From: Dorea sp. 5-2 | GTDB taxonomy: Bacteria; Bacillota; Clostridia; Lachnospirales; Lachnospiraceae | Length of the DNA: 64,000 nucleotides | Assembly (NCBI RefSeq): GCF_000403455.2 | Contig: NZ_KE159715.1 | Coordinates: forward strand, 142,180 to 206,179 | Reading direction: 5' to 3' | Shown here: positions 49,173-64,000 of the stretch, piece after piece | Layout: every line of letters begins with the position of its first letter | Numbering within the stretch: the stretch's first letter is position 1 | Position numbers and translations under genes: made by a program | Notes under the pieces: generated by a model | Seen by the model: only the letters and a program-made list of their open reading frames with translations | Told to the model about the DNA's origin: nothing | The model's database searches: none

Positions 49173-50006
49173 ATGAGAGTTGGAGTTTTGATCGAAGTTT
49201 TTCGGGATACGGACGTAGACGCTAAATTTGCAGAGCTGCGCTCCATGGGAATGGAGAGCTGCCAGCTTGTATGCTGGGATAAAGAGATCATGGATCGGGA
49301 AACTGCGGATAAGGTAAACGAGGCTGCCAGACACCACAAAGTGGAGATCACCGCATTCTGGTGCGGATGGGACGGACCGAAGGTGTGGGATTTTTATGAC
49401 GGGCAGATTACCTTGGGGCTGGTGCCGGAAGCATTTCGCTTTGAAAGAGTGAAAATGCTGCAGAAAGGGATCGCATTTGCTGATATGATCCATGTCAGAG
49501 ATGTGGCGACGCACGTAGGATACATGCCGGAAAATCCATACGATCCCAATTATGCAGGTGTTCTTACATGCCTGAAAGAGCTGGTGAAACTGTGTAAGGA
49601 GAATGGACAGAATTTTCTCTTTGAGACGGGGCAGGAGACGCCGGTTACGTTGAAAAGAGCGATTCAGGATATAGAAAAAGACCTGGGGAAGGGCAATGTA
49701 GGCATTAATCTGGATCCTGCGAATCTGATCATGTATGGCAAGGCAAATCCGGTGGATGCCCTGGAAGTGTTTGGCGAATATGTAATGGGGATTCACGGCA
49801 AGGATGGGAAATATCCTACAGACGGGCATATGCTCGGGGATGAAGTGCCGCTTGGACAAGGCAAGGTGAATTATCCGGCATTTGTGGCAAAGCTTAACGA
49901 GATTGGATATACGGGGGATATCACGATTGAGCGTGAAATCTCTGGGGAGGAACAGAAAAAAGATATTATAATGGCGAAAGAGGTTCTGGATGAACTGTTG
50001 AAATAG
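49173..50006 (+). CDS. TIM-barrel sugar isomerase/epimerase (AP endonuclease 2-like)
   Basis: 277 residues. Xylose-isomerase-like barrel with metal-binding acids in LFETGQET, NLDPANLIMYG, GIHGKDGKY and ITIEREISG. Such proteins epimerise, isomerise or dehydrate sugars, often on 3-keto intermediates made by Gfo/Idh/MocA enzymes. Two such oxidoreductases are in this locus, so the combination suggests a keto-sugar route. The exact substrate is not known. It is the last gene of the operon, 18 bases after the permease, and is followed by a hairpin. Confidence 0.87.
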   Translation: MRVGVLIEVFRDTDVDAKFAELRSMGMESCQLVCWDKEIMDRETADKVNEAARHHKVEITAFWCGWDGPKVWDFYDGQITLGLVPEAFRFERVKMLQKGIAFADMIHVRDVATHVGYMPENPYDPNYAGVLTCLKELVKLCKENGQNFLFETGQETPVTLKRAIQDIEKDLGKGNVGINLDPANLIMYGKANPVDALEVFGEYVMGIHGKDGKYPTDGHMLGDEVPLGQGKVNYPAFVAKLNEIGYTGDITIEREISGEEQKKDIIMAKEVLDELLK

Positions 50007-50012
50007 TAAGAT

Positions 50013-50055
50013 AGATTATGGCTTGCGGTGTAGAGCGGCGGGTCATAATCTGTTT
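50013..50055 (+). terminator. Terminator of the sugar operon
   Basis: AGATTATG (50013-50020) pairs with CATAATCT (50044-50051), followed by GTTTT. The 23-base loop is GC-rich and may pair further. Confidence 0.5.
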
Positions 50056-50102
50056 TCATCAAAAGAAGACAATAGCCAGAACTGTCAGTTGTTATGATGA
50101 TA

Positions 50103-50381
50103 TTATGAAATCTTTTTTAGCTTTTCGCTGTGATCTGATGCTACTTTTTTCAGTAGTTCAATATCTGTAAATGCAGCATCCATTTTATCGGCATAGTCTT
50201 TGTAACGCTTGTATGTATCAGTGTAACATGTTTCGATGGTATTTAATCTTGGAAGTACATTATTTTCAAGTAAATCTATCTCGATTCTCTTGAGGCTGTT
50301 TTCCATTGGCTTTAATCTTGCGTCTAGTTTAACGTCCAGTAGCTGAGAGATTGCTAATAAATCTTCGTTTGTCAATGTCAT
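50103..50381 (-). CDS. Small coiled-coil protein, paralogue 1 of 3
   Basis: 92 residues, function unknown. It begins TNEDLLAISQLLDVKLDARL and ends SDHSEKLKKIS, both nearly identical to paralogue 2, while the middle differs. The heptad pattern (PMENSLKRIEIDLLENNVL, then a second helical run) indicates a coiled coil. AGGAGTGAT precedes the ATG, and a repeated promoter cassette lies about 40 bases upstream. No membrane span or signal peptide. Similar short proteins in tandem may be structural or regulatory oligomers; I cannot say which. Confidence 0.7.
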   Translation of the reverse strand: MTLTNEDLLAISQLLDVKLDARLKPMENSLKRIEIDLLENNVLPRLNTIETCYTDTYKRYKDYADKMDAAFTDIELLKKVASDHSEKLKKIS

Positions 50382-50418
50382 TTAGATCACTCCTTCTGTG
50401 ATTGATTTTGGTGGTTTG

Positions 50419-50455
50419 TATTATATCACGCTTGGGGTATAAAGTCTATTCAATT
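50419..50455 (-). repeat. Promoter cassette, copy 1
   Basis: Near-identical to copy 2 at 51317-51353. On the minus strand it contains TAGACT (50443-50448), a 17-base spacer and TATAAT (50420-50425), so it is the promoter of paralogue 1. Its -35 TAG is also the stop codon of the upstream J-domain remnant. Confidence 0.65.
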
Positions 50456-50568
50456 TTGAAAATCTCTTCTGATCCATTTCCATTGTCAGAGTGATATTTC
50501 TTAAGCAAGACCTTGTATTGTATCCTAAGTTCTTCTAATGTCTGAACGTTCTTAAAATAAGTATTCAT
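50446..50568 (-). pseudogene. Truncated J-domain (DnaJ-like) remnant
   Basis: 40 codons, too short for most gene finders. It reads MNTYFKNVQTLEELRIQYKV and then LLKKYHSDNGNG, the first helices of a J-like domain; the HPD motif that activates Hsp70 appears as HSD. GGAGG lies 9 bases before the ATG. The frame stops at the -35 element of the repeated promoter cassette, where the homology also ends, so the rest of the gene was probably replaced when the cassette arrived. Confidence 0.5.
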
Positions 50569-50594
50569 ATGCTCAACCTCCATAACCTGTAAAT

Positions 50595-50635
50595 AAAAAA
50601 GATGTAAAGTCCTTGATAATTCAATAGACTTTACA
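50595..50635 (-). terminator. Terminator after paralogue 2
   Basis: On the minus strand, TGTAAAGTC (from 50635 down) pairs with GACTTTACA (ending at 50603), followed by TCTTTTTT. The stem is AT-rich. Part of it is made from the inverted cassette copy at 50618-50653. Confidence 0.5.
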
Positions 50636-50653
50636 CCCTTTAGTGATATAAGT
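50618..50653 (+). repeat. Promoter cassette, inverted copy
   Basis: On the plus strand it begins AATTCAATAGACTTTACACC and continues to GTGATATAAG, closely matching the minus-strand copies at 50419-50455 and 51317-51353. Here it points at the 3' end of paralogue 2 and serves as half of a terminator stem. Confidence 0.5.
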
Positions 50654-50671
50654 TATGTAGTTGTTATGATA

Positions 50672-50968
50672 CTATGAAATCTTTTTCAGCTTTTCACTGT
50701 GATCAGAGATAATCTTTTTCATTATCTCAATGTCAGCTTGTATTGCCTGTATCTGAGCGGTAGCGTCTTGATATCGTTTTGCTGCAGGTACATAATTCTC
50801 TACAAGTATATTGATGTCATGTTGAATATCATTTTCAATGATCAAATTAATTCTTGTTTGTTCATCCTTGATAGATTTGATGTCATTTTCCATCGGCTTT
50901 AATCTTGCGTCTAGTTTAACATCCAGTAATTGAGACATTGCTAATAAATCTTCATTTGTCAATGCCAT
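50672..50968 (-). CDS. Small coiled-coil protein, paralogue 2 of 3
   Basis: 98 residues, function unknown. The N-terminus TNEDLLAMSQLLDVKLDARL and the C-terminus IISDHSEKLKKIS match paralogue 1; the central 55 residues diverge but keep a helical pattern (ENDIQHDINILVENYVPAAK). AGGAGTGATATA precedes the ATG. It lies 44 bases after the end of paralogue 3 and is probably transcribed with it. The conserved ends and variable middle suggest a shared assembly interface with a changing specificity region, which is an inference. Confidence 0.72.
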   Translation of the reverse strand: MALTNEDLLAMSQLLDVKLDARLKPMENDIKSIKDEQTRINLIIENDIQHDINILVENYVPAAKRYQDATAQIQAIQADIEIMKKIISDHSEKLKKIS

Positions 50969-51012
50969 GAATATATCACTCCTTCTATTGGTTATATAAA
51001 GGTATGTAGTTG

Positions 51013-51273
51013 TTATGCGATTTGGTTAATTCGTTCTTTTACTTTCCTTAATTCGTTTTCAAGATGATTGACTCTAAGAAGAAGCATCTCTTTTTCATTC
51101 TCGACTTTTAATGCATCATCAAGTTTATGGACTAGATCAAGATGTCCCTCTGCAATAATCTGTATATTGCGGTTGGTTTCATTCTCTAATGTGAGTTCAA
51201 TGCTTTTAATTTCATTCCTTATAGGTTCTAATAATGAATTTATCGCCTGTAAATCTTCGTTTGTCAATGCCAC
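51013..51273 (-). CDS. Small coiled-coil protein, paralogue 3 of 3
   Basis: 86 residues, function unknown. It shares the opening ALTNEDLQAINSLLEPI with the other two but ends in a different leucine-zipper-like run (LLLRVNHLENELRKVKERI). The start is GTG at 51273, with AGGAGTGATATAT just upstream, the same leader as paralogue 2. The promoter cassette copy 2 is about 45 bases upstream. It is first in the minus-strand set of three. Confidence 0.7.
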   Translation of the reverse strand: MALTNEDLQAINSLLEPIRNEIKSIELTLENETNRNIQIIAEGHLDLVHKLDDALKVENEKEMLLLRVNHLENELRKVKERINQIA

Positions 51274-51316
51274 GATATATCACTCCTTTTGTGATGTTTG
51301 TTGCCTTGGTAGTTTG

Positions 51317-51353
51317 TATTATATCACGTTTGGGGTATAAAGTCTATTGAATT
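51317..51353 (-). repeat. Promoter cassette, copy 2
   Basis: On the minus strand TAGACT (51341-51346), a 17-base spacer and TATAAT (51318-51323) form the promoter of paralogues 3 and 2. It matches copy 1 at all but two or three positions. Confidence 0.65.
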
Positions 51354-51651
51354 GCCAAGGTACTTGGTTTTGGTGTTGAGAATATTATACAAAAAATATG
51401 TGAAGAAGAATGGCGGAAATACGCCGTTTCATAAAGATATGGGAAGTTGTAAGAAGATATATCAAGTCCCTGTTTCTTACAAGAATGTAAGTTTCCAACA
51501 TAAAAATGTAACCTGAATCAATGGAAGGATCGCCATCTTTTCTCTATAATGATCTATGTAACCAGGAAGGCATTCGAAGAATGCAACTGATTCATAATTC
51601 TTGGTAAGGATCTCAAAATAAGAATGCATATAAAGAAAGGATGAAGAGCAC
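51354..51651. other. 298-base gap upstream of the BceA-like gene, with inverted repeat
   Basis: No gene seen. TTGTAAGAA (51447-51455) and TTCTTACAA (51474-51482) form a perfect 9-bp inverted repeat with an 18-base spacer, which could be an operator for the transporter. TATAAT at 51545-51550 is a possible -10 without a good -35. Response regulator and kinase genes, usual for Bce systems, are not in the window. Confidence 0.45.
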
Positions 51652-52419
51652 ATGGCATTATTAGAAGTAAAGAATGTAAAGAAGATATATACCACCAGAT
51701 TCGGAGGCAATCAGGTAGAAGCGTTGAGAGACGTTAATTTCTCCGTGGAACCTAGAGAATACGTTGCGATCATGGGCGAATCCGGCTCCGGCAAGACGAC
51801 CCTCTTGAATATCCTTGCCGCCCTTGATAAACCCACCGGCGGCAAAGTCTATCTGAAAGGCAGAGACCTAAGCGCCGTCAAGGAGAAGGAGATCGCGGCA
51901 TTCCGCCGGCAGAATCTTGGATTTGTGTTTCAGGACTTCAATCTTCTGGATACGTTTTCTCTCAAGGATAATATCTTCCTTCCGTTGGTACTGTCCGGGA
52001 AGAAATATGAAGAGATGGAGGCAAGGATCATACCGGTCACTCAGATGCTCGGGATCGAGGATCTGTTGGAGAAATTCCCGTACGAAGTGTCCGGCGGGCA
52101 GAAGCAGAGGGCGGCGGTTGCAAGGGCGCTTATTACCAGACCGCAGTTAGTCCTTGCGGACGAACCGACAGGAGCGTTGGATTCCAGAGCGGCAGACGGG
52201 CTTCTGGATCTGTTTAAGACGATCAATGAAAACGGCCAGACGATCCTCATGGTAACCCACAGCGTCAAGGCGGCAAGCACTGCGAACCGAGTGCTTTTTA
52301 TCAAAGACGGGGAGGTATTCCATCAGCTTTACCGCGGTAATCTGACCAATGAGCAGATGTATCAGAAGATATCCGACACGCTGACGGTACTGACTACGGG
52401 AGGTGAGAGAAGTGAGTAG
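51652..52419 (+). CDS. BceA-like ABC transporter ATP-binding protein
   Basis: 255 residues. ATPase of the peptide-antibiotic-resistance (Bce/Lol/MacB) class. Walker A GESGSGKTT, Q-loop FVFQDFNLLD, signature VSGGQKQRAAVARAL, and Walker B LVLADEPTGALDS are all present. Start ATG at 51652; AAAGGATGAAGAG upstream is a modest ribosome site. It overlaps the permease gene. Such transporters remove or sense cell-wall-active peptides such as bacitracin or lantibiotics. Confidence 0.93.
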   Translation: MALLEVKNVKKIYTTRFGGNQVEALRDVNFSVEPREYVAIMGESGSGKTTLLNILAALDKPTGGKVYLKGRDLSAVKEKEIAAFRRQNLGFVFQDFNLLDTFSLKDNIFLPLVLSGKKYEEMEARIIPVTQMLGIEDLLEKFPYEVSGGQKQRAAVARALITRPQLVLADEPTGALDSRAADGLLDLFKTINENGQTILMVTHSVKAASTANRVLFIKDGEVFHQLYRGNLTNEQMYQKISDTLTVLTTGGERSE

Positions 52420-54391
52420 CTCTATCTATGGAAAGCTTGCGCTGACGAATCTTAAGAACAATCGGAAGACTTACATTCCGTATGTCCTGACATCGATCCT
52501 CACGGTGATGATGTACTATATCATGGATGGATTGTCCAGAAACTCTTCGATCGGTGATGGGAACGTGCATCTGGTACTGGTCTATGCCAGGGCAGTGATC
52601 ATTATATTTGCGGTCATCTTCCTGTTCTATACCAACAGTTTTCTGATCAAACGCAGGAAGAAAGAGATCGGTGTCTACAATATTCTTGGTATGGGGAAAC
52701 GGCATATAGCCAGGATGCTCATCGTCGAGACACTGGTGACGGCAACCGTGAGCATCGGTACAGGGATCTTATTCGGGGGCATATTCAGTAAGCTGATGTA
52801 TCTCGTCCTGCTGAAGATCCTGGATTATGATGTCAGGATGGATTTTGAAGTTTCGGCAGACACACTGATGTATACCCTTGCCCTTTTCCTGGTGATCTTT
52901 ATCATGACACTGGTCTATAATCTGTTTCAGATCCAGCTCTCCAATCCGGTGGAGCTGCTTCACGGAGGCAGCCAGGGAGAGAAGGAACCAAAGACAAAGT
53001 GGCTGATGACTGTATTCGGAGTGGTGACGCTGGGCATCGGATACTTTATTGCGATAACGACGGATCAGCCTCTGGCAGCGATCCCGGCGTTCTTTATAGC
53101 GGTGGTCTGCGTTATCCTTGGAACTTACGCACTCTTTACCGCCGGGAGTATTGCGCTTTTTAAGGCGCTTCGAAAGAATAAAAAATTCTATTACCAGACA
53201 AAGCATTTCAACGCGGTGGCAGGAATGATCTACCGGATGAAGCAGAATGCGGTGGGGCTTGCGAACATCTGCATCCTAAGTACGATGGTGCTGGTGATGA
53301 TCTCCACGACGATCTCGCTCTATGTGGGGATGGAAAATGTGCTGGAGACCAGATATCCAAGAGAAGTTGAGGCAAAGACGAATGTATCTGTGCCGGAATC
53401 GGATCAGGCTGTGGACAGGATCGTGGAGGAAGAACTTAAGAATGCAGGAGTGGAGGCAAAATCCATGCTTCGTTATCATGACGGAAGTGTGGCGGCGTTA
53501 AAGCAGGAGGATGGATTCGCACTGCAGCAATTTGGAAATTATCAGATAGATGATGTTGTGGAAGTGTATCTGATCCCCCTTAATGACTATGATCAGATGG
53601 AAAATGTGAAGAGCAGCCTTGTGCCGGACGAAGCATATGTATACAGTACGGGAGAAGACTGGGGAAAGGATACGGTGAAGCTTGGCAACCGGACTTATCG
53701 GGTGGCAAAGGAATTGGAGGATTTAGGACTTGCGTACGGGCAGAATCTGGTGGAAAGTTATTATTTCATCGTTCCTGATGCAGGACAGATCCAGGAGATC
53801 CTGGCTGAGCTGTACAAGGACAGCGATATGCAGGAGGATTGGAAGGAGCAGATGTTGAATCTTAATTACCGTGTAATCTTCGATCTGGAAGGGGATGAGG
53901 AAGCCTGCTTTAGTGCGTTAAAGGCAATGCGGTCAAGGATCGAAGGCGAAGTCCACTCCGGGTTTTTCGAGAGCAGGGAGTTAAACCGGGAAGAATTCTA
54001 TTTCCTCTATGGAGGGTTGTTGTTCATCGGTATATATCTTGGCGTACTGTTTCTGATGGCGACGGTATTGATCATGTATTATAAGCAGATCTCAGAAGGA
54101 TATGATGACAGAGAACGCTATCAGATCATGCAGAAAGTGGGCATGAGCAAGCGTGAGGTCAGACATTCCATCCGCAGCCAGGTGCTTATGATCTTCTTCT
54201 TGCCCCTTGTGACGGCGGTCATTCATATCGCAGTGGCATTCGGCGTGATCACGAAGCTGTTGGCAGTGCTGAATCTGACGGATGTACCGTTGTTCTTCCT
54301 GTGTACGGTTGTGACAGTCGTCGTGTTTGTGGTATTCTATGGGATCGTGTTCTCGCTGACAGCGAGGGAATACTATAAGATCGTGAATTAG
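52412..54391 (+). CDS. BceB-like FtsX-family ABC permease
   Basis: 659 residues. Ten membrane spans in the Bce arrangement: one at the N-terminus, a group of three, further spans to about residue 300, then a large extracellular domain (residues about 310-530), and three final spans. FtsX-type motifs include KRRKKEIGVYNILGM and YQIMQKVGMSKREV. Start GTG 52412 is preferred over GTG 52403 because GGGAGGTGA lies just before it. It overlaps bceA by 8 bases. It acts with the ATPase upstream in resistance to envelope-targeting peptides. Confidence 0.92.
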   Translation: MSSSIYGKLALTNLKNNRKTYIPYVLTSILTVMMYYIMDGLSRNSSIGDGNVHLVLVYARAVIIIFAVIFLFYTNSFLIKRRKKEIGVYNILGMGKRHIARMLIVETLVTATVSIGTGILFGGIFSKLMYLVLLKILDYDVRMDFEVSADTLMYTLALFLVIFIMTLVYNLFQIQLSNPVELLHGGSQGEKEPKTKWLMTVFGVVTLGIGYFIAITTDQPLAAIPAFFIAVVCVILGTYALFTAGSIALFKALRKNKKFYYQTKHFNAVAGMIYRMKQNAVGLANICILSTMVLVMISTTISLYVGMENVLETRYPREVEAKTNVSVPESDQAVDRIVEEELKNAGVEAKSMLRYHDGSVAALKQEDGFALQQFGNYQIDDVVEVYLIPLNDYDQMENVKSSLVPDEAYVYSTGEDWGKDTVKLGNRTYRVAKELEDLGLAYGQNLVESYYFIVPDAGQIQEILAELYKDSDMQEDWKEQMLNLNYRVIFDLEGDEEACFSALKAMRSRIEGEVHSGFFESRELNREEFYFLYGGLLFIGIYLGVLFLMATVLIMYYKQISEGYDDRERYQIMQKVGMSKREVRHSIRSQVLMIFFLPLVTAVIHIAVAFGVITKLLAVLNLTDVPLFFLCTVVTVVVFVVFYGIVFSLTAREYYKIVN

Positions 54392-54482
54392 TGACGCGGA
54401 AAAGTTATGAAATTATCCTGTACCCTCTTCCTGTGTTATGTTAAAATAAAATCATCATTTTACGAAGCAGGAGGAGACTGAT

Positions 54483-54824
54483 ATGACAAAAGCAGGAGAA
54501 AGAGAAATTGTAAAGGCAGAACACGTAGGAGGCGGAGCAGGGTTCATAATGAAGGAAGCATTGCTGAGCGGTGAAGAACTGGGGGATCATTGCCGCATGT
54601 TCAGTAAAGTAACCCTGCCGCCGAACTGTGAACTTGGACACCATGAACACCATGGCGAGACGGAGACCTATTATATCCTGGAGGGCAAGGGAATGTATGA
54701 CGACGACGGCAGAGCGATCCCGGCAGAACCAGGAGACGTTTTCTTCTGCAAAGACGGCAGTGGACACGGTATGAAGAATACAGGAACGGAGGATCTGACG
54801 TTTATAGCGCTTATATTAAAATAA
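54483..54824 (+). CDS. Single-domain cupin protein
   Basis: 113 residues. The cupin metal-binding motif 1 is clear (GHHEHHGETETYYILEG, with His residues and the Glu), and motif 2 is PGDVFFCKDGSGHGMKN with the final His. Such small cupins bind a divalent metal and may be isomerases, dioxygenases or sugar-binding proteins; the activity cannot be predicted. AGGAGGAG precedes the ATG. It stands alone, with its own upstream region after the transporter and no clear terminator behind it other than T-rich DNA. Confidence 0.85.
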   Translation: MTKAGEREIVKAEHVGGGAGFIMKEALLSGEELGDHCRMFSKVTLPPNCELGHHEHHGETETYYILEGKGMYDDDGRAIPAEPGDVFFCKDGSGHGMKNTGTEDLTFIALILK

Positions 54825-54861
54825 AAATTTTGCTTTTTTTCACGTTTTTCTGTTTACGGCA

Positions 54862-54891
54862 TTGCCATTCATGTTCAAACAATGCTATAAT
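54862..54891 (+). promoter_or_regulatory. Promoter of the DUF5717-DUF5716-TPR module
   Basis: TTGCCA (54862-54867), 18-base spacer, TATAAT (54886-54891). The leader has a hairpin formed by GGGCATC (54912-54918) and GATGCCC (54927-54933), a short distance before the start codon. Confidence 0.6.
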
Positions 54892-54946
54892 CTTTTAGAG
54901 TGTATCCGTATGGGCATCGCATAATGGATGCCCGGCCGGACAGTGG

Positions 54947-57900
54947 ATGAATGCCAGGCAAGGTATGTCTACGAAAAAGCAACGAAAGAAGCAGGTGTCA
55001 GACTTGAAAAATAAAATCCAGAAATTTTCCAAAGGAGATTTTCAGTTATCACAACCTGATGTCATATTTGATGAGACGAATCTGGTACTCATTATTGGAG
55101 AAGGGGAAGTATATCGGGGGAATTTTACAATTAAAGCAGAAGGCGGAAGGAAGATACGAGGGCTAGTCTACTCGTCTTCTTTTCGTGTGTGTTTCCGGAA
55201 TTCCGGATTTGACGGTAATCCGGCGAAAGTAGAGTTCACCTATGACGGGAAAGGGCTTAGGCCGGGACATGTGGAGGACGGCATCTTTACCGTAGTATGC
55301 AATGGGGGCGAATATGAACTGTCCGTTACTGCGATCATCGAGAAGCCATATGTTATGACTTCATATGGGAAGGTGCAGAGTACGGATGATTTCCGCAAGT
55401 TAGCGATCAAGGACTTCTCGGAAGCAGGAAGGTTATTCCGTGCCAGAGAATTCTATGAGATCTTGAAATATGAGAATGAGCGTATCTTCTATCTGTATGA
55501 TAATATGAGGAAATGGTTTTTGGGAGACCAGGCGCTTGAAGAATTCCTGGTGGGGATCAAGCAGAAAGAATGTATCTTTCTGACACTCCCGGGGGAAGGG
55601 ATGCTCTTTGAAGATCTGTCTGAATCGACGAAGGGGACGCTTACGATCGTGAAGAATACATGGGGATTCATGCCGATCCGTATAGAGCCGGAAGGAAAGT
55701 TCCTTAAGGTGCAGCGTTCCGAGATCAGTACGGAAGATTTTATCGGAAATGCTTACGAGATCGAATATGTGGTGAGGCCGGAATTCCTGCATGGGGGGCG
55801 TAATTTTGGCGCGCTTAGATTTATCACGCCGTATGAGACTCTGACGTATGAGATCGAGGTGCTGCAGAATCAGAAAGAGTACAGTGATAACCGCAGGATG
55901 CCGGAACTTCTGGTCGCGCAGATCCTGAAAGAATATATCGGATATGTGGCGGGGAGGATCGAGCTTGATAACTGGATGGAGAGTGCGATCGAGAAGATGA
56001 TCTCACTTCGCAAGCTGAATCCCCAAAGCGAGATGTATCAGCTGATGCAGGCGCATGTCTATTTGGTAGGCAACAGGACGGAAGAAGCAAAATGGATCCT
56101 TGAGAATTACAACTATAATCGCTTTGCAATCGGGAAGGATCCGCTGACCAACTGTTATTATCTGTATCTGACGGCTTTGGTGCGTGGAAAGAAGAACCAT
56201 TCGGAACGTGTGTTGGATGAAGTCGGAAAGACCTATATGAGACATCAGGACTCATGGCTTCTGTTATCCATGCTGCTTGATCTGGATTCCCGGTATAAGA
56301 CGGCATATAAGAGGATCGAATTGTTGGAGCAGCAGTATCAGTATGAGATGCATGGGGTGCTGTTCTATCTGGAGGCATATCTCTGTTACCAGGAGAGGCC
56401 GACACTTTTAAAGAAGTTGGGGCACTTTGAGATCCAGGTGCTTAATTTTGCGTCCAAATACAGGCTGATGACAAAAGAGCTGGCTTTGTATGTGGCGAAC
56501 TTTGCCAGTCAGCAGAAGCAGTACAGTGATTCTATGTTCCGGATCCTGGAGCGTATCTATAAAATATATGACGAGCCTATGATATTGAATACGATCTGTA
56601 CGCTGCTGATCCGGGGAAATAAGGTGCAGAAGCGTTATTTTACATGGTATCAGCGTGCCGTGGAAGCAGAATTAAAGATCGCGCAGCTTTATGAATATTA
56701 TATGATGACGGTAGATGAAGAGGCTGTAAAGGGACCGCTGCCCAAAGTGATCCTGCTGTATTTCATGCATGGGAATTCGCTGAATTATAAGAAAGCGGCT
56801 CTGCTGTATGCGAATCTGGTGGTTTATGAGGAACAGGCAGGAGATCTCTATCTGAATTACCGTGAACAGATGGTGGTGTTCACATGGGATCAGCTGTTGA
56901 AGCGGCATATTACGGAGTCGCTGCGCATTCTGTACAGACGGTTCTGTCAGCCGGAAGAGATGTCGGCAGAGCGGATGGAGGCGATGCGTGATATCTGTTA
57001 TTCTTATGCGATCTCAACGAAAGTTGCAAATATGAAATGTGTCCTGGTTATAGAGAAGGATGGAGAGATCCGGCAGAGGGTTCCGTATGACAGTGAAGAA
57101 GGCACGGTGATCCGCCTGTACGATAAGGAGTCCAGAGTTGTGTGGGAGTCCGTGGAAGGACGCCATTATACGGACTCTATTGTGTATGAGACCAGGCGGC
57201 TCTTTTATGAACCGCGTTTTATAGAACTTTGCCGGAAATATGCTGCGACGACCGGAGTATGGGAGCAGGAGAACGAAAAAGAGAGTCCGACATTCGAGGG
57301 GCTTAAGGAAAAGGGAATTAATGCATACGATGAAAAAGAAGTATTCCGTCTGTGCAGCAGAAAGATCAGGGACGATAACTATGAAGAAGATGCGTTCCTG
57401 AATTACCTGAGTTTTGAGCTGTTCCGGCAGCAGCAGTTTGATAAAGTGACGCTGATGTATCTTGCGAATTATTATTGCGGCCCCACGAGTAATATGAAGA
57501 TGCTGTGGAAGGCGCTGAAGGAATATGAGGTTCCGTCTTATAAGATCAGCGAGCGCATTATTACACAGATGCTCTTCTCTGAGAATCTGTTCCAGGAGGA
57601 GCGTATTTTTGAGGACTATTATCTGTCGGATAATGTTTATTTCCGTCTGAAGCAGGCATATCTCGCGTATACCTCCAGAGAATACGTAGTATATGGAAGA
57701 GGTCTTGAGGGAAGTGTGTTTGATATCATCGCAAGTGAATGTGATGAGAAAGAGGATCTGCCGGATATCTGTAAGATCGCGCTGTTGAAATATTATTCGG
57801 ATCATGATTATACGGCGGCGCTTGAAGTGGTGCTTCATCAGGTGCTGCGGGAGATGTGCGAGAAGCAGATCGTATTTCCTTATTATCTAAAGTATAAGGA

Positions 57901-58300
57901 AGAATGGTTAAGAGAGCTGCAGCTATATGATAAAGTCATGGTCTCTTACCAGGCAAGGCCGGGGAGCAGGGTGACACTGTACTATAAGATGAAGCACGGG
58001 ATGCGCGACGAGTTAGGATATCAGAGCGAGGTTATGATGCCTGTCTATGAGAACTTATATGTACGGCAGTTCGTGCTGTATAGTGATGAATCGATCAATT
58101 ATTATTTTATTGAGACAAGGGGAAAAGAGGATGTCATAACTGAGAAGGAGATATTAAGGAATGAGAGGGAGATCACGGAGTCAGGGAAATACGGACGTCT
58201 GAACCGTATGACAGAGATGGCGCCGGTATCGCGCCGGAAGGCGATGATGGACTATAAAGAAGAAGAGATCATGGCAAAGAGGCTTTTTAAGGTCTATTAG
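54947..58300 (+). CDS. DUF5717-like large protein: beta-sandwich domains plus helical repeats
   Basis: 1117 residues, function unknown. I recognise it as a DUF5717-type protein. There is no signal peptide and no membrane span. Residues about 35-135 look like a beta-sandwich of the BACON/DUF1573 sort (YRGNFTIKAEGGRKIRGLVY ... YELSVTAIIE). A helical segment follows, then a second similar sandwich around residues 225-310 (KGTLTIVKNTWGFMPIRIEP). From about 330 to 1000 the sequence is helical, with TPR-like spacing of Trp, Tyr and Leu, and the C-terminus returns to strands. The start at 54947 has only a weak ribosome site; Met7 at 54965 is possible. Its own promoter precedes it and two partners follow. 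Confidence 0.8.
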   Translation: MNARQGMSTKKQRKKQVSDLKNKIQKFSKGDFQLSQPDVIFDETNLVLIIGEGEVYRGNFTIKAEGGRKIRGLVYSSSFRVCFRNSGFDGNPAKVEFTYDGKGLRPGHVEDGIFTVVCNGGEYELSVTAIIEKPYVMTSYGKVQSTDDFRKLAIKDFSEAGRLFRAREFYEILKYENERIFYLYDNMRKWFLGDQALEEFLVGIKQKECIFLTLPGEGMLFEDLSESTKGTLTIVKNTWGFMPIRIEPEGKFLKVQRSEISTEDFIGNAYEIEYVVRPEFLHGGRNFGALRFITPYETLTYEIEVLQNQKEYSDNRRMPELLVAQILKEYIGYVAGRIELDNWMESAIEKMISLRKLNPQSEMYQLMQAHVYLVGNRTEEAKWILENYNYNRFAIGKDPLTNCYYLYLTALVRGKKNHSERVLDEVGKTYMRHQDSWLLLSMLLDLDSRYKTAYKRIELLEQQYQYEMHGVLFYLEAYLCYQERPTLLKKLGHFEIQVLNFASKYRLMTKELALYVANFASQQKQYSDSMFRILERIYKIYDEPMILNTICTLLIRGNKVQKRYFTWYQRAVEAELKIAQLYEYYMMTVDEEAVKGPLPKVILLYFMHGNSLNYKKAALLYANLVVYEEQAGDLYLNYREQMVVFTWDQLLKRHITESLRILYRRFCQPEEMSAERMEAMRDICYSYAISTKVANMKCVLVIEKDGEIRQRVPYDSEEGTVIRLYDKESRVVWESVEGRHYTDSIVYETRRLFYEPRFIELCRKYAATTGVWEQENEKESPTFEGLKEKGINAYDEKEVFRLCSRKIRDDNYEEDAFLNYLSFELFRQQQFDKVTLMYLANYYCGPTSNMKMLWKALKEYEVPSYKISERIITQMLFSENLFQEERIFEDYYLSDNVYFRLKQAYLAYTSREYVVYGRGLEGSVFDIIASECDEKEDLPDICKIALLKYYSDHDYTAALEVVLHQVLREMCEKQIVFPYYLKYKEEWLRELQLYDKVMVSYQARPGSRVTLYYKMKHGMRDELGYQSEVMMPVYENLYVRQFVLYSDESINYYFIETRGKEDVITEKEILRNEREITESGKYGRLNRMTEMAPVSRRKAMMDYKEEEIMAKRLFKVY

Positions 58301-58320
58301 GATGAGAGGAGGGGAGGATA

Positions 58321-59604
58321 ATGAAAGACGACGTAATTCTGGGTTTTGATCTGAATGAGAAATATTGTCAGATCAGTTTCTATGATGAGACGAAAGAAGA
58401 GCCGGAGACGCTGGAGACAGAAGCAGATAATTATCAGATTCCCCTGGTACTGGGTTATTATAAAGAAAGATGGGTCTATGGAAAAGAAGCCAAGAGGCTT
58501 GCGGCTCTTCAAGAAGGTATTACGGTGACAGATCTTTTTGAAAAGGCGGTCAGGCAGGAGAAAGTAATGGTTGGATCAAGGAAGCGGGACGGAGTCTGGC
58601 TGCTTGCCAAGTTCATCAAACTGACGCTTGCGGAATATGAAGAGATCAGTTTTATCACGTTTTCCGTGCCTTATACGAATATAGATATGTCTAAGATGCT
58701 CAAAGGAATCGGGCATTATCTGGGGATACCAAAAGAAAGGGTCTGTGTTCAAGATTATAAAGAAAGCTTTTGCCAGTATATGTTCTATCAGCCGAAAGAG
58801 CTGTGGCAGTATGAATCGGCGTTATTCTACTGTGACGCGCAGGAAATACGTGCTTATATGTTAAAGCGGCTGAATACGATCGGAGTGAAGGAGCGTGAGA
58901 CATTTGTGACGGTGGATGAGGTTGCGAATGCACAGATGCGGGAATTGGCGGCGATCTATCCGATCTTGAATAAGGATCAGGCGAAGGATGCGGACGGCAG
59001 ATTCAAGACGTTTATCCAGAGTGTCTTTGAGAAAAAAGTCGTTTCTTCGGTGTATCTGACCGGCGAAGGGTTCGAGAATAACTGGTATCCGAATTCACTC
59101 AAAGTGCTGTGTAATGGAAGAAGGGCGTTCATCGGCAATAATCTGTACAGCAAAGGCGCTTGCTATACTTCTATAAGAAGATGTAAAGAATACCATGACA
59201 GTCCTGTTTACTTGGATGAGACGAAGATGACGGAACAGATCTGTCTGCGTATGAGGGTCAACGGACAGGAAGGGTGGTATCCGATCGTATCTTGGGGAAC
59301 GCATTGGTATGAAGCAGACGGACAGTGGGAGGTTATCCTTGAGGATACTTCGGATATTGAGATTCATGTGGAGACTCTGGCGGGAGACGAGCTGCAGGTA
59401 GAGACGGTATCGCTCGAAGGGCTTCCGGACAGAAGGGATTATTCCCTGCGGGTGCAGATCGAGGTATTGTTCATGGATGAACGTACGTGCAGGCTCTCTT
59501 TCAAAGATGTGGGATTCGGTGAATTCTTCCCGGCGACCGGATTCCAGGTGGAGAAGACGATACATTTAGGAGGAAGCAATGGGCAGTTTAATTCTATGTC
59601 ATAG
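58321..59604 (+). CDS. DUF5716-like protein with divergent Hsp70/actin-type ATPase fold
   Basis: 427 residues. It resembles Hsp70/actin ATPases in several places: a phosphate-1-like GFDLNEKYCQISFY at residues 8-21, VQDYKESFCQY where Hsp70 has EPTAAALAY, a strand with Asp at 167-172 (ALFYCD) in the phosphate-2 place, and an adenosine-like LTGEGF at 246-251 followed by GNNLYSKGACY, where Hsp70 has a VAxGAA run. Residues 305-427 are strand-rich and could be a short substrate-binding domain. The phosphate-2 glycines are missing, so ATP turnover is uncertain. It begins 20 bases after the DUF5717 gene with GGAGGGGAGG, and the next gene starts inside its end. Fold assignment is my inference. Confidence 0.75.
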   Translation: MKDDVILGFDLNEKYCQISFYDETKEEPETLETEADNYQIPLVLGYYKERWVYGKEAKRLAALQEGITVTDLFEKAVRQEKVMVGSRKRDGVWLLAKFIKLTLAEYEEISFITFSVPYTNIDMSKMLKGIGHYLGIPKERVCVQDYKESFCQYMFYQPKELWQYESALFYCDAQEIRAYMLKRLNTIGVKERETFVTVDEVANAQMRELAAIYPILNKDQAKDADGRFKTFIQSVFEKKVVSSVYLTGEGFENNWYPNSLKVLCNGRRAFIGNNLYSKGACYTSIRRCKEYHDSPVYLDETKMTEQICLRMRVNGQEGWYPIVSWGTHWYEADGQWEVILEDTSDIEIHVETLAGDELQVETVSLEGLPDRRDYSLRVQIEVLFMDERTCRLSFKDVGFGEFFPATGFQVEKTIHLGGSNGQFNSMS

Positions 59605-60361
59605 GAAGAGGGCAAGACAGCCTTACGTGATCGCCAGGATTCATATGAGAGTCTATACGATAGAAGAGTTGTGTTACTATATATGTAATAATCTTTACTT
59701 GATCGATTATACGCTGGTGAACAGGCAGTTGTGTAACTGGATCGACAAGGAGTTGGAATTGACTGAGCTTGCGGAGCAGCTCAGGGAAGAATTAAGACAG
59801 AACTGTACGATGGAACAGTTCGTGCTGACGATCCTAAGAGAATCGACCATCTATGCCACGGGAGATATCAATAAGATACAGGGGATCCTGGAACATCTGC
59901 AGAATCTGCGGGATGTGGAGCGTATGAAATATAAAGCAGACAGCCTGCAAAGAAGCGGTGAATATGAGACGGCGATCCTGGTTTATCAGTCTATTATTAA
60001 CAGTGAGTGGGATAATTCGGTGAGCAAGCTATTCTATGGAAGAGTCTATGCGAGCCTGGGAGCGGCTTACGGACAGCGTTTTCTTTATGAAGAAGCGGCG
60101 AAGGTATATCTGGAGGCGTATCGTATCTGCGGAGATATGGAGCTTCTTAGAACCTATCTGTACTGTTGTTACCGGGCGCTTCCGGAAGATCAGTATGTGA
60201 AGATGCTGTCGGGGAATTCCATGTTTCTGAATATGGATTCCGCCATGAAAGAGGATATCCGGGAGATTCAGAGAGGGATTGATGTAGATATACCGGAAGA
60301 GCAGTTTGAACAGTGGAAGAGGGAATACCGCAAGATGAATAAGAGCCGCGTTATGGGATAA
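59579..60361 (+). CDS. TPR-like helical protein, third gene of the module
   Basis: 260 residues. Residues 1-22 are basic, followed by a conserved-looking block (MRVYTIEELCYYICNNLYLI) and about 220 helical residues. TPR-type repeats are visible near residues 120-200, for example AILVYQSIINSEWDN and AYGQRFLYEEAAKVYLEAYR. AGGAGG with a 5-base gap sets ATG 59579 inside the end of the DUF5716 gene; Met23 is a weaker alternative. No signal peptide. TPR proteins often serve Hsp70-type chaperones as adaptors, which fits the neighbour, but partnership is inferred from the 26-base overlap. Confidence 0.78.
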   Translation: MGSLILCHRKRARQPYVIARIHMRVYTIEELCYYICNNLYLIDYTLVNRQLCNWIDKELELTELAEQLREELRQNCTMEQFVLTILRESTIYATGDINKIQGILEHLQNLRDVERMKYKADSLQRSGEYETAILVYQSIINSEWDNSVSKLFYGRVYASLGAAYGQRFLYEEAAKVYLEAYRICGDMELLRTYLYCCYRALPEDQYVKMLSGNSMFLNMDSAMKEDIREIQRGIDVDIPEEQFEQWKREYRKMNKSRVMG

Positions 60362-60453
60362 TGGAAGAAGAGGACCGTAGGCACACATGCGTTTGCGGGG
60401 TTGTTCACGGATGATAAAAACAGAAACAGAAAAAGAAAAGGAGAGTGTAATAT

Positions 60454-61887
60454 ATGAGCTATGATAAGTACAACAGTCCGCTTTCAGAGCGGTATGCGAG
60501 TAAGGAGATGCAGTACGTATTCTCACCGGACAAGAAATTTAGAACCTGGCGGAGGTTATGGATCGCCCTTGCGGAGACGGAGAAGGAGTTAGGGCTTGAG
60601 ATCACGGACGAACAGATCGAAGAATTAAAAGCACATGCAGAGGATATCAATTACGATGTGGCAAAGGAGCGTGAGAAGATCGTGCGCCATGACGTCATGT
60701 CCCATGTGTATGCCTATGGGCAGCAGTGTCCGAAGGCAAAAGGGATCATCCATCTTGGAGCGACTTCCTGTTATGTGGGAGACAATACAGATATGATCGT
60801 TATGTCTGAGGCTCTTGAGATCGTAAGGAGAAAACTGGTGAATGTGATCGCCGAGCTTTCGAAGTTCGCCGATGAGTACAAAGGATTGCCGACGCTTGCG
60901 TTCACACACTTTCAGCCGGCACAGCCGACGACGGTGGGAAAGAGGGCGACGCTTTGGATGCAGGAATTTGCCATGGATCTGGAAGACCTGGAGTATGTGA
61001 AGGGAACGCTTAAGCTTCTCGGATCAAAGGGGACGACGGGAACGCAGGCGAGTTTCCTGGAGCTTTTTGACGGGGATCAGGAAACGATTGATAAGATTGA
61101 TCCGATGATCGCAAAGAAGATGGGATTTCAGGCATGTTATCCGGTTTCTGGACAGACATATTCCCGTAAAGTAGATACCAGAGTGCTGAACGTACTTGCC
61201 GGTATTGCGGCGAGCGCGCATAAGTTCTCCAACGATATCCGTCTGCTACAGCATCTGAAGGAAGTGGAAGAGCCTTTTGAGTCGACTCAGATTGGTTCTT
61301 CGGCAATGGCATATAAGAGGAATCCGATGAGAAGTGAAAGGATCGCGTCTCTTTCCAGGTATGTCATGATCGACGCGCTGAATCCGGCGGTGACTTCCGC
61401 AACCCAATGGTTCGAGCGGACCCTTGATGATTCGGCGAATAAGCGCTTAAGCGTGCCGGAAGGATTCCTTGCGGTTGACGGTATCCTGGATCTGTGCCTA
61501 AATGTCGTGGATGGGCTGGTGGTATATCCGAAGGTTATTGAGAAGCGTCTGATGTCGGAGCTTCCGTTCATGGCGACGGAGAATATCATGATGGACGCGG
61601 TGAGAGCCGGCGGAGACCGCCAGGAGCTTCATGAGAGGATACGAAAGTTGTCCATGGAAGCAGGGCGGAATGTGAAGGAGAAGGGACTGGATAATAATCT
61701 GCTTGAATTGATAGCAGCTGATCCGGCATTCAATCTGTCGTTCGACGAGCTGAAACAGACGATGGACCCTGCAAAATATGTAGGACGCGCCCCGATCCAG
61801 GTGGAAGTATATCTAAGGGATGTGATCCGCCCGCTGCTTGAGCAGAACAAGGATGTACTGGGAATGAAAGCGGAGATCAATGTATGA
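60454..61887 (+). CDS. purB: Adenylosuccinate lyase
   Basis: 477 residues. Cleaves SAICAR and adenylosuccinate in purine synthesis. Signature GSSAMAYKRNPMRSER is complete, with the catalytic Ser in the flexible loop, and HLGATSCYVGDNTD and TLAFTHFQPAQPTTVG hold the other active-site His and Thr. AAAGGAG precedes the ATG. It is 92 bases after the TPR gene and is probably unrelated to that module. No other pur gene is in the window. Confidence 0.96.
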   Translation: MSYDKYNSPLSERYASKEMQYVFSPDKKFRTWRRLWIALAETEKELGLEITDEQIEELKAHAEDINYDVAKEREKIVRHDVMSHVYAYGQQCPKAKGIIHLGATSCYVGDNTDMIVMSEALEIVRRKLVNVIAELSKFADEYKGLPTLAFTHFQPAQPTTVGKRATLWMQEFAMDLEDLEYVKGTLKLLGSKGTTGTQASFLELFDGDQETIDKIDPMIAKKMGFQACYPVSGQTYSRKVDTRVLNVLAGIAASAHKFSNDIRLLQHLKEVEEPFESTQIGSSAMAYKRNPMRSERIASLSRYVMIDALNPAVTSATQWFERTLDDSANKRLSVPEGFLAVDGILDLCLNVVDGLVVYPKVIEKRLMSELPFMATENIMMDAVRAGGDRQELHERIRKLSMEAGRNVKEKGLDNNLLELIAADPAFNLSFDELKQTMDPAKYVGRAPIQVEVYLRDVIRPLLEQNKDVLGMKAEINV

Positions 61888-61930
61888 TAGAATCCGGAAA
61901 GCAGATCACCTCCGTGCGAAGATATTAAGT

Positions 61931-62248
61931 TTATAGGATAAATGCAGCAAAGGCTTCGCAGAAAAATACGACTGTGCAGCACAGTGCGGCGATTCCTACC
62001 ATATTGACACCGCGCCACGCGGCGACGGATCCGGTGATAAACGCGAGGATTCCGGCAAGCGGGATCTGAGGCGCGGTGAGGATAGCGGGAAATGTCATGA
62101 CAGCCAGTGTTACATAGGGAACATAATACAGGAAAGAGCGTATGAAACGATTCTTTATCTTTCCGCGGATCAATGTGAGTGGGAGCACGCGGATCACGAA
62201 AGATACGGCGGCAGCCACTAATATATAAAGATAGATATTATGTATCAT
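61931..62248 (-). CDS. azlD: AzlD-family branched-chain amino acid exporter subunit
   Basis: 105 residues with four hydrophobic spans; partner of AzlC. The opening VAAAVSFVIRVLPLTLIRGK is typical. GGAGGTAACAG precedes the ATG at 62248 within the end of azlC, so translation is coupled. The pair exports branched-chain amino acids or analogues. Confidence 0.88.
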   Translation of the reverse strand: MIHNIYLYILVAAAVSFVIRVLPLTLIRGKIKNRFIRSFLYYVPYVTLAVMTFPAILTAPQIPLAGILAFITGSVAAWRGVNMVGIAALCCTVVFFCEAFAAFIL

Positions 62249-62996
62249 ATTCTGTTACCTCCGAAAGTGTATCTGATGCGGCGCAGTCTTCGGCATCTTC
62301 CCTGGCGGGAAAGAGAAATGCGGCGATTCCTGAGATCAGTACGGTCAGAAGACTTATTTTCAGACTGTCTGACAGGTTGGCGAGCGCAGGAATCTTTGAG
62401 ACTGCAAAGCTTACCAGAAAGCTTGCGGTCACTACACCGCCTACGATCTTATCTGTCCGTGAGGCGGGGATGATGACTGCCAGGAACATGCCGTAGAGTG
62501 CGACGCTCAATGCGCTGACTGCGGATACCGGCAGAATATTGCCGGCGACGATTCCCATAGCAGTGCCGGCTGCCCAGCATGGTAGCGCGATCGCCATGGC
62601 GCCGTAATTGTACCATGGGTTTAACATGCCGGCGCGGGCGATGCTGATCCCGAAGATCTCATCCGTGATCCCGAATCCGACAAAGAGGCGGTGGAACAAA
62701 GGGATATCTGGTGCGAATCTCTGGCTTAAGGCGCAGCTCATCAACAGATAGCGGATATTGGTCACAAGGATGACGAATGCCATCTCAAAATAAGACGCAT
62801 TCGCCATGATCACGGTGAATTCGGCATATTCTCCGGCAGAAGCATGGTTTAATATACTGGATAAGAAGCCTTGAAAAGGATTCAGGCCGGCTTTGCGCGC
62901 CACGATACCAAGAGAAAAGGCAACGGCAAAATAACCCAGAGCGATTGGAAATCCGTCACAGATTCCGTTTTTAAATGCATTGATATTTCGGTTCAT
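62238..62996 (-). CDS. azlC: AzlC-family branched-chain amino acid exporter
   Basis: 252 residues, about seven hydrophobic spans. Family features: GICDGFPIALGYFAVAFSLG at the start, and NIRYLLMSCALSQRFAP. AGGGAGA precedes the ATG. It overlaps azlD by 11 bases. A promoter lies just upstream on the minus strand. Confidence 0.9.
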   Translation of the reverse strand: MNRNINAFKNGICDGFPIALGYFAVAFSLGIVARKAGLNPFQGFLSSILNHASAGEYAEFTVIMANASYFEMAFVILVTNIRYLLMSCALSQRFAPDIPLFHRLFVGFGITDEIFGISIARAGMLNPWYNYGAMAIALPCWAAGTAMGIVAGNILPVSAVSALSVALYGMFLAVIIPASRTDKIVGGVVTASFLVSFAVSKIPALANLSDSLKISLLTVLISGIAAFLFPAREDAEDCAASDTLSEVTEYDT

Positions 62997-63038
62997 CTTT
63001 TGTCTCCCTGATGATATAATTGAATAAGCAATATTATA

Positions 63039-63067
63039 AGTATAGCTTGTTCCTGGAAGAGATTCAA
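63039..63067 (-). promoter_or_regulatory. Promoter of azlCD
   Basis: On the minus strand TTGAAT (63062-63067), a 17-base spacer and TATACT (63039-63044), about 40 bases before the azlC start. Confidence 0.6.
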
Positions 63068-63180
63068 GGGTTTGAATGGCGAATTTTACAGGAGTGGCGG
63101 ATATCGTATGAGATCTTATGGGATTTTTACGGATGTGAAAGATGATTCATGATAGAAGTGCAATAGAAGGAGAAAGAAAG

Positions 63181-63579
63181 ATGAGATATGAATTGACAAA
63201 AGAACTGGAGACAGGAAATACGATGATAGATCAGGAACATAAAGAGTTGTTTGAAGCTGTGAACCGCCTTCTGGACGCCTGCAGCAAAGGGCAGGGAAGG
63301 TCTTCGATGGAAGAGGCAATCCGGTTCCTGGCTGCTTATGTGGATAAGCATTTTGCACATGAAGAACAATTACAGCAGAAAAGCGGGTATAGCGGGATGG
63401 CGGCACATAAGGCGTTCCATGCCAAATATAAGAAGACGCTTATGGAGATCGTTGCGCAGATTCCTTTAGCGGATCCTTCTTTGGCAGATCTGGGGAGCCT
63501 GAATAAACATGTGGCTGTCCTGGTGAATCATATCCGGACAGAGGATAAGAAATTGAGTGCATTTCTAAAGAATGTATAA
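63181..63579 (+). CDS. Bacteriohemerythrin
   Basis: 132 residues. Di-iron oxygen-binding four-helix bundle. Ligand pattern is present: His in MIDQEHKELF, His and Glu in HFAHEEQLQ, His residues in HKAFHAKY, and His with the final Asp in VNHIRTEDKKL. The ATG at 63181 is chosen because AAGGAGAAAG lies before it; the upstream ATG 63142 has no ribosome site and no family similarity. In strict anaerobes such proteins bind or scavenge oxygen. It has a good terminator behind it. Confidence 0.92.
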   Translation: MRYELTKELETGNTMIDQEHKELFEAVNRLLDACSKGQGRSSMEEAIRFLAAYVDKHFAHEEQLQQKSGYSGMAAHKAFHAKYKKTLMEIVAQIPLADPSLADLGSLNKHVAVLVNHIRTEDKKLSAFLKNV

Positions 63580-63637
63580 AATTGATAAAAATTTAGCAAA
63601 ATGCCCAAATCTTAGAAAAAAGAAATAAGTTGGCATA

Positions 63638-63679
63638 AAAAAATCAGGCGGAAAATCAAGGATTGCCGTCTGATTTTTT
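63638..63679 (+). terminator. Rho-independent terminator of hemerythrin
   Basis: AAAAAATCAGGCGG (63638-63651) pairs with CCGTCTGATTTTTT (63666-63679), allowing one G-T pair. It ends in a T-run. Confidence 0.8.
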
Positions 63680-63696
63680 CGCTAAATTGGACAAGA

Positions 63697-63778
63697 GTGT
63701 ACAAATTGTGTACAAAATAGACAAAAAATGTGAAAAAAACCACAGCATGTTGAATAAAACTTTTATTAATGGTATGAT
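63697..63778 (+). promoter_or_regulatory. Symporter promoter with upstream direct repeats
   Basis: TTGAAT (63750-63755), 17-base spacer, TATGAT (63773-63778). Upstream, GTGTACAAA occurs twice (63697-63705 and 63708-63716), 11 bases apart, one helical turn, and about 35 bases before the -35. Such spacing suits an activator or repressor dimer. The regulator is unknown. Confidence 0.55.
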
Positions 63779-63832
63779 AGAAGAGATGAATAAATTGTAT
63801 TCAACTTATCTATGCAAAGGGGGAATTAGCAA

Positions 63833-64000
63833 ATGGAAGCAATGTTGAATAATATTTTCTCAACATTAGGAAGTTATCTGTCAAACTACATACTGATCGT
63901 TGCACTTCTTGGCGGCGGTATCTGGTTTACAGTGAAACTCGGATTTATTCAGGTAAAAGGGTTCGGAGAAGGAATGCGCAGGACCTTTGGCGGGATGTTC
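63833..64000 (+). CDS. Alanine/glycine:cation symporter (AGCS family), N-terminal part
   Basis: 56 codons up to the right edge. The N-terminus has a first hydrophobic span (YILIVALLGGGIWFTVKLGF) and then IQVKGFGEGMRRTFGGMF, typical of sodium:alanine symporters. AAAGGGGG precedes the ATG at 63833. The rest of the gene lies outside the window. Confidence 0.82.
   Translation, partial: MEAMLNNIFSTLGSYLSNYILIVALLGGGIWFTVKLGFIQVKGFGEGMRRTFGGMF

Follow-up and report, generated by a model that had tools for sequence, protein, structure and literature searches.

A conserved three-gene module of Lachnospiraceae encodes a lidless, degenerate relative of Hsp70 and has a larger Hsp70-GrpE operon as its counterpart in sister families

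Within a window of 64,000 nucleotides from Dorea sp. 5-2 (the whole stretch of DNA analysed, contig NZ_KE159715.1, positions 142,180 to 206,179) lies a compact three-gene module, all of it on the + strand. It comprises gene A, a DUF5717 scaffold protein with a likely TTG start (55004..58300), gene B, a DUF5716 protein of 427 amino acids that we describe as a lidless pseudo-Hsp70 (58321..59604), and gene C, which encodes a short TPR-like protein of 260 amino acids (59579..60361). By sequence, B is a degenerate relative of Hsp70 and not a functional Hsp70 ATPase. In sister families, orthologues of A, B and C stand in a conserved and newly described operon together with Hsp70-A, a GrpE-domain protein, Hsp70-B and an Hsp70-VWA protein. 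We propose that A, B and C represent what is minimally left of an order-specific, Hsp70-derived machine in which B would be a non-cycling, Ssz1-like holder on a scaffold, a proposal whose chances of being right or wrong we put as equal.

Pfam recognises gene B as DUF5716_C (3e-107). Its AlphaFold2 model, built on a 73-row alignment from which the DUF5716 protein of locus L127 was left out, reached a mean predicted local distance difference test (pLDDT) score of 92.2 and a predicted template-modelling (pTM) score of 0.90. A Foldseek search of the PDB gave 344 matches at E <= 1e-3, headed by a DnaK model (1.5e-18), and the best 50 of the 344 are Hsp70-type chains (DnaK, Hsc70, BiP, Ssb, RAC/Ssz1, Hsp110 and mortalin) apart from a single chain that belongs to the ciliary central apparatus. 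The initial annotation had called 58321-59604 Hsp70/actin-like; the predicted fold is that of Hsp70, with a nucleotide-binding domain (NBD) followed by the β part of a substrate-binding domain (SBD-β). When 40 DUF5716 proteins of the family are combined into a profile, it matches the profile of the sister-operon Hsp70s over 405 columns (99.5%, E 4e-23) and PDB DnaK sequences over its N-terminal 126 positions (1.3e-5); the corresponding sister profile aligns with DnaK from the NBD into the SBD (2e-21). The Pfam HSP70 model does match the sister DUF5716 protein of L118 (1.8e-14). Together with the operon context of its sister-family orthologues, the structural and profile matches bear out the earlier description of B as a degenerate Hsp70.

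The sequence motifs of B follow one another in the Hsp70/actin order that had been proposed for them, and alignment shows how far each has decayed. The residues GFDLNEKYC, in the degenerate segment GFDLNEKYCQISFY (58342..58383, +), align with Hsp70 phosphate-1, NEKY taking the place of GTTN. At the phosphate-2 position GGGTFD is lost and the protein reads CDAQEIRA (58831..58854, +), while TGEGFE aligns with the adenosine motif in the altered segment LTGEGF (59056..59073, +), where G248, G250 and F251 are near-invariant. It is because NEKY and CDAQEIRA replace GTTN and GGGTFD that B does not appear to be a functional Hsp70 ATPase. Subdomain IIB is the GrpE contact, and the phosphate-2-to-adenosine stretch that holds it (58855..59055, +) is shortened in B, to 69 residues as against 134 in the DnaK of the same genome; it spans 51-69 residues in seven family proteins and 107-143 in 13 sister proteins at the DUF5716 position.

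Model and alignment place a C-terminal β domain (about residues 300-416; 59218..59568, +) where SBD-β would stand. This substrate-binding-type domain keeps near-invariant residues, which suggests that B still binds something. The lid (SBD-α) is absent, with 22 residues beyond the reference column compared with 146 in DnaK. Assignment of B to actin/MreB was rejected in view of the SBD-type β domain after the NBD and by the structural matches to Hsp70; the sister DUF5716 protein of L118, likewise, scores on PF00012 and not on MreB_Mbl.

The identity of B is strengthened by the sister families, where its orthologues share an operon with motif-intact Hsp70s and a GrpE-domain protein. The sister sample comprises 20 loci (L114-L133), with extensions for 13, and represents 20 of the 42 non-family genomes that have a DUF5717 match. 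As far as each fetched stretch reaches, the gene order is DUF5717 (usually two genes), Hsp70-A, the GrpE-domain protein of about 600 amino acids, DUF5716, Hsp70-B, Hsp70-C with a VWA domain, and gene C. The type example is an eight-gene operon (L118:1-13096 with L154:9612-10775), for which L118 gives Pfam matches to HSP70 (6.2e-78, 1.6e-63 and 8.1e-92), GrpE (7.1e-11) and VWA (7.1e-10); GrpE is also recognised in L114 and L128, and HSP70 in L114. Hsp70-A was found in 19 of the 20 loci, the GrpE-type protein in 18, Hsp70-B in 17 and Hsp70-C in 16. Gaps in L115, L117 and L131 are contig or stretch ends, and L127 is without all four, holding only DUF5717 and DUF5716 (L127:5816-10915). The order departs from the type through extra open reading frames (ORFs) in L115, L126 and L130, through the lack in L125 of a first DUF5717 gene beside the rest of the operon, and through a single DUF5717 gene in L120, L128, L132 and L133; in the last two, the DUF5716 position holds a very diverged protein. 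This sister-order locus (L127 and L210, genome G510), with no Hsp70s, GrpE or C adjoining DUF5717 and DUF5716, possibly reflects an independent reduction to the same core.

All four Hsp70-like proteins of the sister operon are lidless, and three of them keep their ATPase motifs, which are intact in every aligned row (16 rows for Hsp70-A, 13 for Hsp70-B and 9 for Hsp70-C). Beyond the end of SBD-β, Hsp70-A has 9-11 residues, Hsp70-B 15-27 and Hsp70-C, which is fused to VWA, 202-207 (DnaK, 146). In a phylogenetic tree that left out the diverged proteins of L132 and L133, Hsp70-A, Hsp70-B, Hsp70-C, the family DUF5716 proteins and the four other Hsp70s of the window's genome form one group each. 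Family DUF5716 joins a protein of genome G499 (100/97), and Hsp70-B is nearest to the DUF5716 rows. The idea that the sister Hsp70s were relocated within the window's genome was rejected, since its four other Hsp70s group with DnaK, apart from Hsp70-A, -B and -C, and since a search of 100 family genomes with Hsp70-A, the one of the three used as a query, gave no match above 190.8 bits.

Hsp70-A itself was not found in 100 family genomes: the top score among the matches listed for it, 190.8 bits at 38% identity, is such as DnaK would give, while the three sister Hsp70-A proteins compared are 58-78% identical among themselves. Contraction in the window's family, rather than growth, is the simplest reading. 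Shared flanking genes, identified by eye, agree with it: upstream, a divergent aminotransferase-like gene is seen in at least 10 of 32 family loci and at least 9 of 20 sister loci; downstream, at least 9 of 32 family loci and at least 3 of 13 sister extensions have a valS-like gene. The order would then have evolved a dedicated multi-Hsp70 machine that the window's family made ATP-independent, keeping the pseudo-Hsp70 core near-universally; we regard this history as evenly poised between true and false.

The module is widespread within the family. In 200 Lachnospiraceae genomes, drawn one per genus, DUF5716_C and DUF5717 were each found in 195, with one match per genome in most. Genome G318 has only DUF5716_C and G444 only DUF5717; G396 and G426 have neither, but carry DUF5717_N pieces near contig ends, and the module is at least partly present in 198 of the 200 genera. 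A draw of 299 genomes across the phylum, holding only one other genome of the order, gave both families over the cut-off in four genomes, all four of them Lachnospiraceae, and in none of the 295 outside the family; a DUF5717 match in G027 (6.5e-4) fell below the cut-off and was counted as absent. The sister-family DUF5717 profile likewise matches four of the 299. In a draw of 96 genomes from the order, DUF5717 was found in 51 and DUF5716_C in 48, or in 42 and 39 of 87 once nine Lachnospiraceae are set aside.

That the three genes belong together, as the initial annotation had supposed, is borne out by this survey and by 144 family loci (L002-L113, L134-L153, L164 and L186-L196, short DUF5717_N-piece loci left out), all chosen by a match to A or B and 11 of them second views of the same genome's locus. 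By tblastn, A, B and C occur together and in order in 143, and the sole miss, L048, is cut off by the locus end; automatic ORF calls recover all three in 134 of the 144. Median gaps over 132 loci are 17 bases for A-B and -26 for B-C, and an apparent separation of A and B in G307 is a contig break. Against six relatives, the ratio of nonsynonymous to synonymous substitution rates (Ka/Ks) could be computed for 14 of 18 gene comparisons and ranges over 0.013-0.055, with Ks near saturation; in the remaining four, which give no ratio, Ks is saturated. These values point to purifying selection on A, B and C and, with the co-occurrence in 143 of 144 loci, place the module beyond chance. B and C form one open frame without stops in two loci, of 684 amino acids in L187 (L187:10834-12888, +) and 723 in L196 (L196:5074-7245, -). 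These fusions, together with the conservation of the operon, suggest that A, B and C may form a physical complex.

Gene A matches DUF5717_N (3.2e-204) and DUF5717 (7.5e-97) in Pfam, and its predicted structure (pLDDT 88.8, pTM 0.59) resolves into a series of domains, numbered here from the ORF that begins at 54947 and all on the + strand. A first N-terminal β domain with Ig/ASH-type structural matches (residues 38-143; 55058..55375) and a second β domain (218-307; 55598..55867) precede the first part of an α-solenoid with TPR/HAT-like matches (314-684; 55886..56998), a β insert (686-751; 57002..57199), the second part of the solenoid (756-990; 57212..57916) and a C-terminal β domain (997-1071; 57935..58159). 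The earlier description of two β-sandwich domains and a helical-repeat body holds as far as it went, but it was incomplete, as β structure also occurs at 686-751 and 997-1071. The structural matches, 61 at E <= 1e-3 with a best value of 6.7e-7, are all local and fall on Ig/ASH-type domains of the ciliary central apparatus, CEP192 and titin and on repeat proteins. The N-terminal β domains (55058-55867) find their best match in the Ig/ASH domains of the ciliary central apparatus, entry 7sqc, an entry that also holds an Hsp70. This resemblance probably reflects a common scaffold fold and not kinship.

Gene C had been called TPR-like, and this is clear for its orthologue in a sister family (L154; TPR_19, 2.7e-20), whereas the protein of the window itself stays below the TPR cut-off. 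In many family loci C is followed by gene D, a coiled-coil-like protein with a central hydrophobic hairpin (examples are L134:10479-11702, +, and L163:10099-11238, -, and relatives). One or two hydrophobic stretches occur in all 14 of the D sequences inspected, and a search of 100 family genomes found D in 44, one of them weakly, and not in the window's genome. An alternative is that A, B, C and, where present, the membrane gene D build a fixed scaffold by which a membrane complex, whether of the envelope, of division or of another kind, is positioned, with B as a docking piece and no chaperone for clients. The large Ig/solenoid architecture of A, whose best structural matches are scaffold proteins, would suit such a role, as would the hydrophobic stretches of D, its place after C and the loss of catalytic motifs from B. 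That D was found in no more than 44 of those 100 genomes, and not in the window's own, speaks against it, as does the β domain of B, whose near-invariant residues suggest binding. We consider the membrane scaffold possible but doubtful.

In the holder mechanism that we favour, the ancestral machine would have joined an Ig-solenoid scaffold and a GrpE-domain protein to four lidless Hsp70s, among them one pseudoenzyme and one in which VWA stands where the lid would be. From it the window's family would have deleted the cycling Hsp70s and the exchange factor while retaining the pseudo-Hsp70 and the scaffold. B would dock on the TPR-like C and on the Ig-like domains and α-solenoid of the large A. 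It would run no ATP/GrpE cycle and would act, like Ssz1, as a fixed, low-affinity subunit that holds a peptide or partner. A and C would supply recognition and assembly, C as an adaptor, and the client or partner would be held by B on the Ig/solenoid scaffold. The initial annotation had supposed a chaperone or assembly machine in which the repeat proteins would select clients, a proposal that our results support in part. The physical complex, the holding of a client or partner and the absence of hydrolysis are what we infer from the comparisons above. A non-cycling holder fits because B has lost its ATPase motifs, half of the IIB stretch and the lid, and because the module is without the GrpE-domain protein and the other Hsp70s.

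Several observations weigh against this account. The structural template-modelling scores of B, by query length, are 0.40-0.52 among the best 50 of the 344 matches, and the Pfam scan gave no PF00012 match to the window's B at E <= 1. The TPR match of the window's C (TPR_14, 6e-4) stays below threshold, scoring 20.7 bits where 23.5 are required, and Pfam recognised no J-domain family in A, B or C or in those proteins of the sister operon that were scanned. The branches of the Hsp70 tree are long, and contraction is preferred over growth on grounds of parsimony; the genome-wide search of the family covered Hsp70-A but not Hsp70-B or Hsp70-C. Two family genomes, G327 (93% complete) and G389 (98%), show no part of the module. 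In G337 the module is truly split, with A alone (L209:7527-11081) and B, C and D still together elsewhere (L208:7332-10777), which shows that co-transcription of A with B is not obligatory. Heat-shock control of the module by HrcA/CIRCE was rejected: the window contains no CIRCE at up to 3 mismatches, and the exact matches, confined to 3 of 205 loci, all lie away from the module itself.

The layout of the locus is as first described. A 20-base gap separates A from B, B and C overlap by 26 bases, and a module promoter (TTGCCA, spacing 18, TGcTATAAT; 54862..54891, +) matches 11 of 12 hexamer positions, with TG preceding the second hexamer. The promoter is conserved in nine aligned relatives, two of which have single changes in the first hexamer. 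The ORF of gene A as listed (54947-58300, +) begins at ATG 54947, but the start is probably TTG 55004, with GTG 54995 as an alternative, because L005, L006 and L018 have an in-frame TAA where the window reads the codon CAA at 54980 and because the block common to all ten aligned rows, which includes TTG 55004, starts at about 54980. The segment from ATG 54947 to about 54980 is unconserved in the upstream alignment of the window and its nine relatives. From TTG 55004, gene A encodes about 1098 amino acids. An inverted repeat, CATTG-N15-CAATG, lies across the promoter (54860-54884), and 31 of 102 family loci keep its half-sites at the same position, with a variable spacer. Taken by itself, the repeat of the window could have arisen by chance, and the 102 loci are mutually related. 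It is a possible operator.

By eye, a cupin gene flanks the module upstream and a purB-like gene downstream, and two transposase-like ORFs of different kinds lie on opposite strands elsewhere in the window (8395-10137 and 11652-13208). In L150 an htpG-like gene with its own CIRCE stands directly upstream of the module (L150:12346-14415), with a stem-loop followed by a T-run and a separate TTGCTATAAT in between. In L192, groES-groEL-like genes with their own CIRCE stand downstream (L192:10259-12296), and in L131 a CIRCE lies beside dnaK-region genes; these gene names, too, were assigned by eye. A J-domain hidden in A or C was rejected, as Pfam gave no match; an HPD tripeptide is present in 26 of the 198 A-type ORFs and in none of the 160 C-type ORFs. 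No known RNA element reached its gathering score in 50000-64000 of the window, and an NCBIfam scan gave nothing useful.

We found no published description of the module or of the operon combination in a search limited to open-licence papers, which leaves absence from the literature unproven; within that literature DUF5717 is not mentioned and DUF5716 appears only in an unrelated context. Lachnospiraceae are prominent among gut bacteria, and these unnamed genes are retained by almost all of the genera that the family survey covered. The sister operon offers a first functional handle, in that it indicates that the trio belongs with an Hsp70/GrpE machine. It also sets out an evolutionary series, from the full motif-intact operon to the pseudo-Hsp70 core, which lets one ask how a chaperone system stays useful once its ATPase is gone, along with its exchange factor and the region on which that factor docks. 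If our reading is true, this would be a chaperone machine that has outlived the loss of its motor.

The sister operon invites comparison with the GAP1-N2 neighbourhoods of Kaur and co-workers, in which HSP70 and GrpE occur with an FNIII-TPR or FNIII-DnaJ protein (PMC7159879). There, a single neighbourhood unites GrpE with two Hsp70s, the second of them reduced, and with a β-sandwich protein fused to TPR; the full sister operon has a similar set of parts, namely Hsp70s, GrpE, a protein of β-sandwich and solenoid, TPR and VWA. This likeness speaks for a conflict or defence system related to those chaperone-based systems, and a PADLOC candidate, PDC-M61B, partly overlaps the sister Hsp70-B (3.9e-11) and Hsp70-C (2e-7), although more weakly than their HSP70 Pfam matches. 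Those systems, however, centre on GTPases and a GAP1 protein, and Pfam recognised neither among the operon proteins scanned, no GAP1 model having been searched directly; nor was a nuclease or effector recognised among them. PADLOC found no complete defence set in the sister operon, where the GrpE protein partly matches ZorA (0.0014) and C gives partial matches to PrimPol (4.4e-6) and PDC-M71B (0.0043), and a single weak match (E 0.033) among the window's proteins. The module is also near-universal in the family, at one match per genome in most, unlike patchy defence loci. We judge a defence role very unlikely.

A degenerate Hsp70 beside helical repeats is likewise the pattern of CnuD of CoCoNuT systems, for which PMC11090510 describes an Hsp70-like NBD/SBD with degenerate ATP motifs and associated HEAT-like repeats. 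B might, then, be a factor that binds RNA or the ribosome, as is proposed for CnuD and known for Ssz1, which acts at the ribosome (PMC7083937). CnuD, however, belongs to restriction systems that also contain RNases and homologues of McrB and McrC (PMC11090510). Scans of the operon proteins recognised neither nucleases nor McrBC homologues, and Pfam recognises no RNA-binding domain in A, B or C. An RNA- or ribosome-linked function strikes us as improbable.

For B as a non-cycling holder, the closest parallels are DnaK and Ssz1. B shares with DnaK/Hsp70 (PF00012) its NBD and SBD-β layout, its predicted fold and its ancestry, and differs in having lost GTTN, GGGTFD and the lid and in an IIB stretch of about half the length. 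Ssz1, of the yeast ribosome-associated complex (RAC), is lidless, binds ATP without hydrolysing it and holds a partner motif in its SBD-β (PMC7083937). The lidless Hsp70 fold is common to both proteins, and Ssz1-containing entries are among the structural matches of B. Ssz1 is, however, eukaryotic, has a J-domain partner and works with the ATPase Ssb, whereas the module has no J-domain that we found, no cycling Hsp70 left and, in B, a shortened IIB stretch. By analogy, B may work like Ssz1 without being Ssz1.

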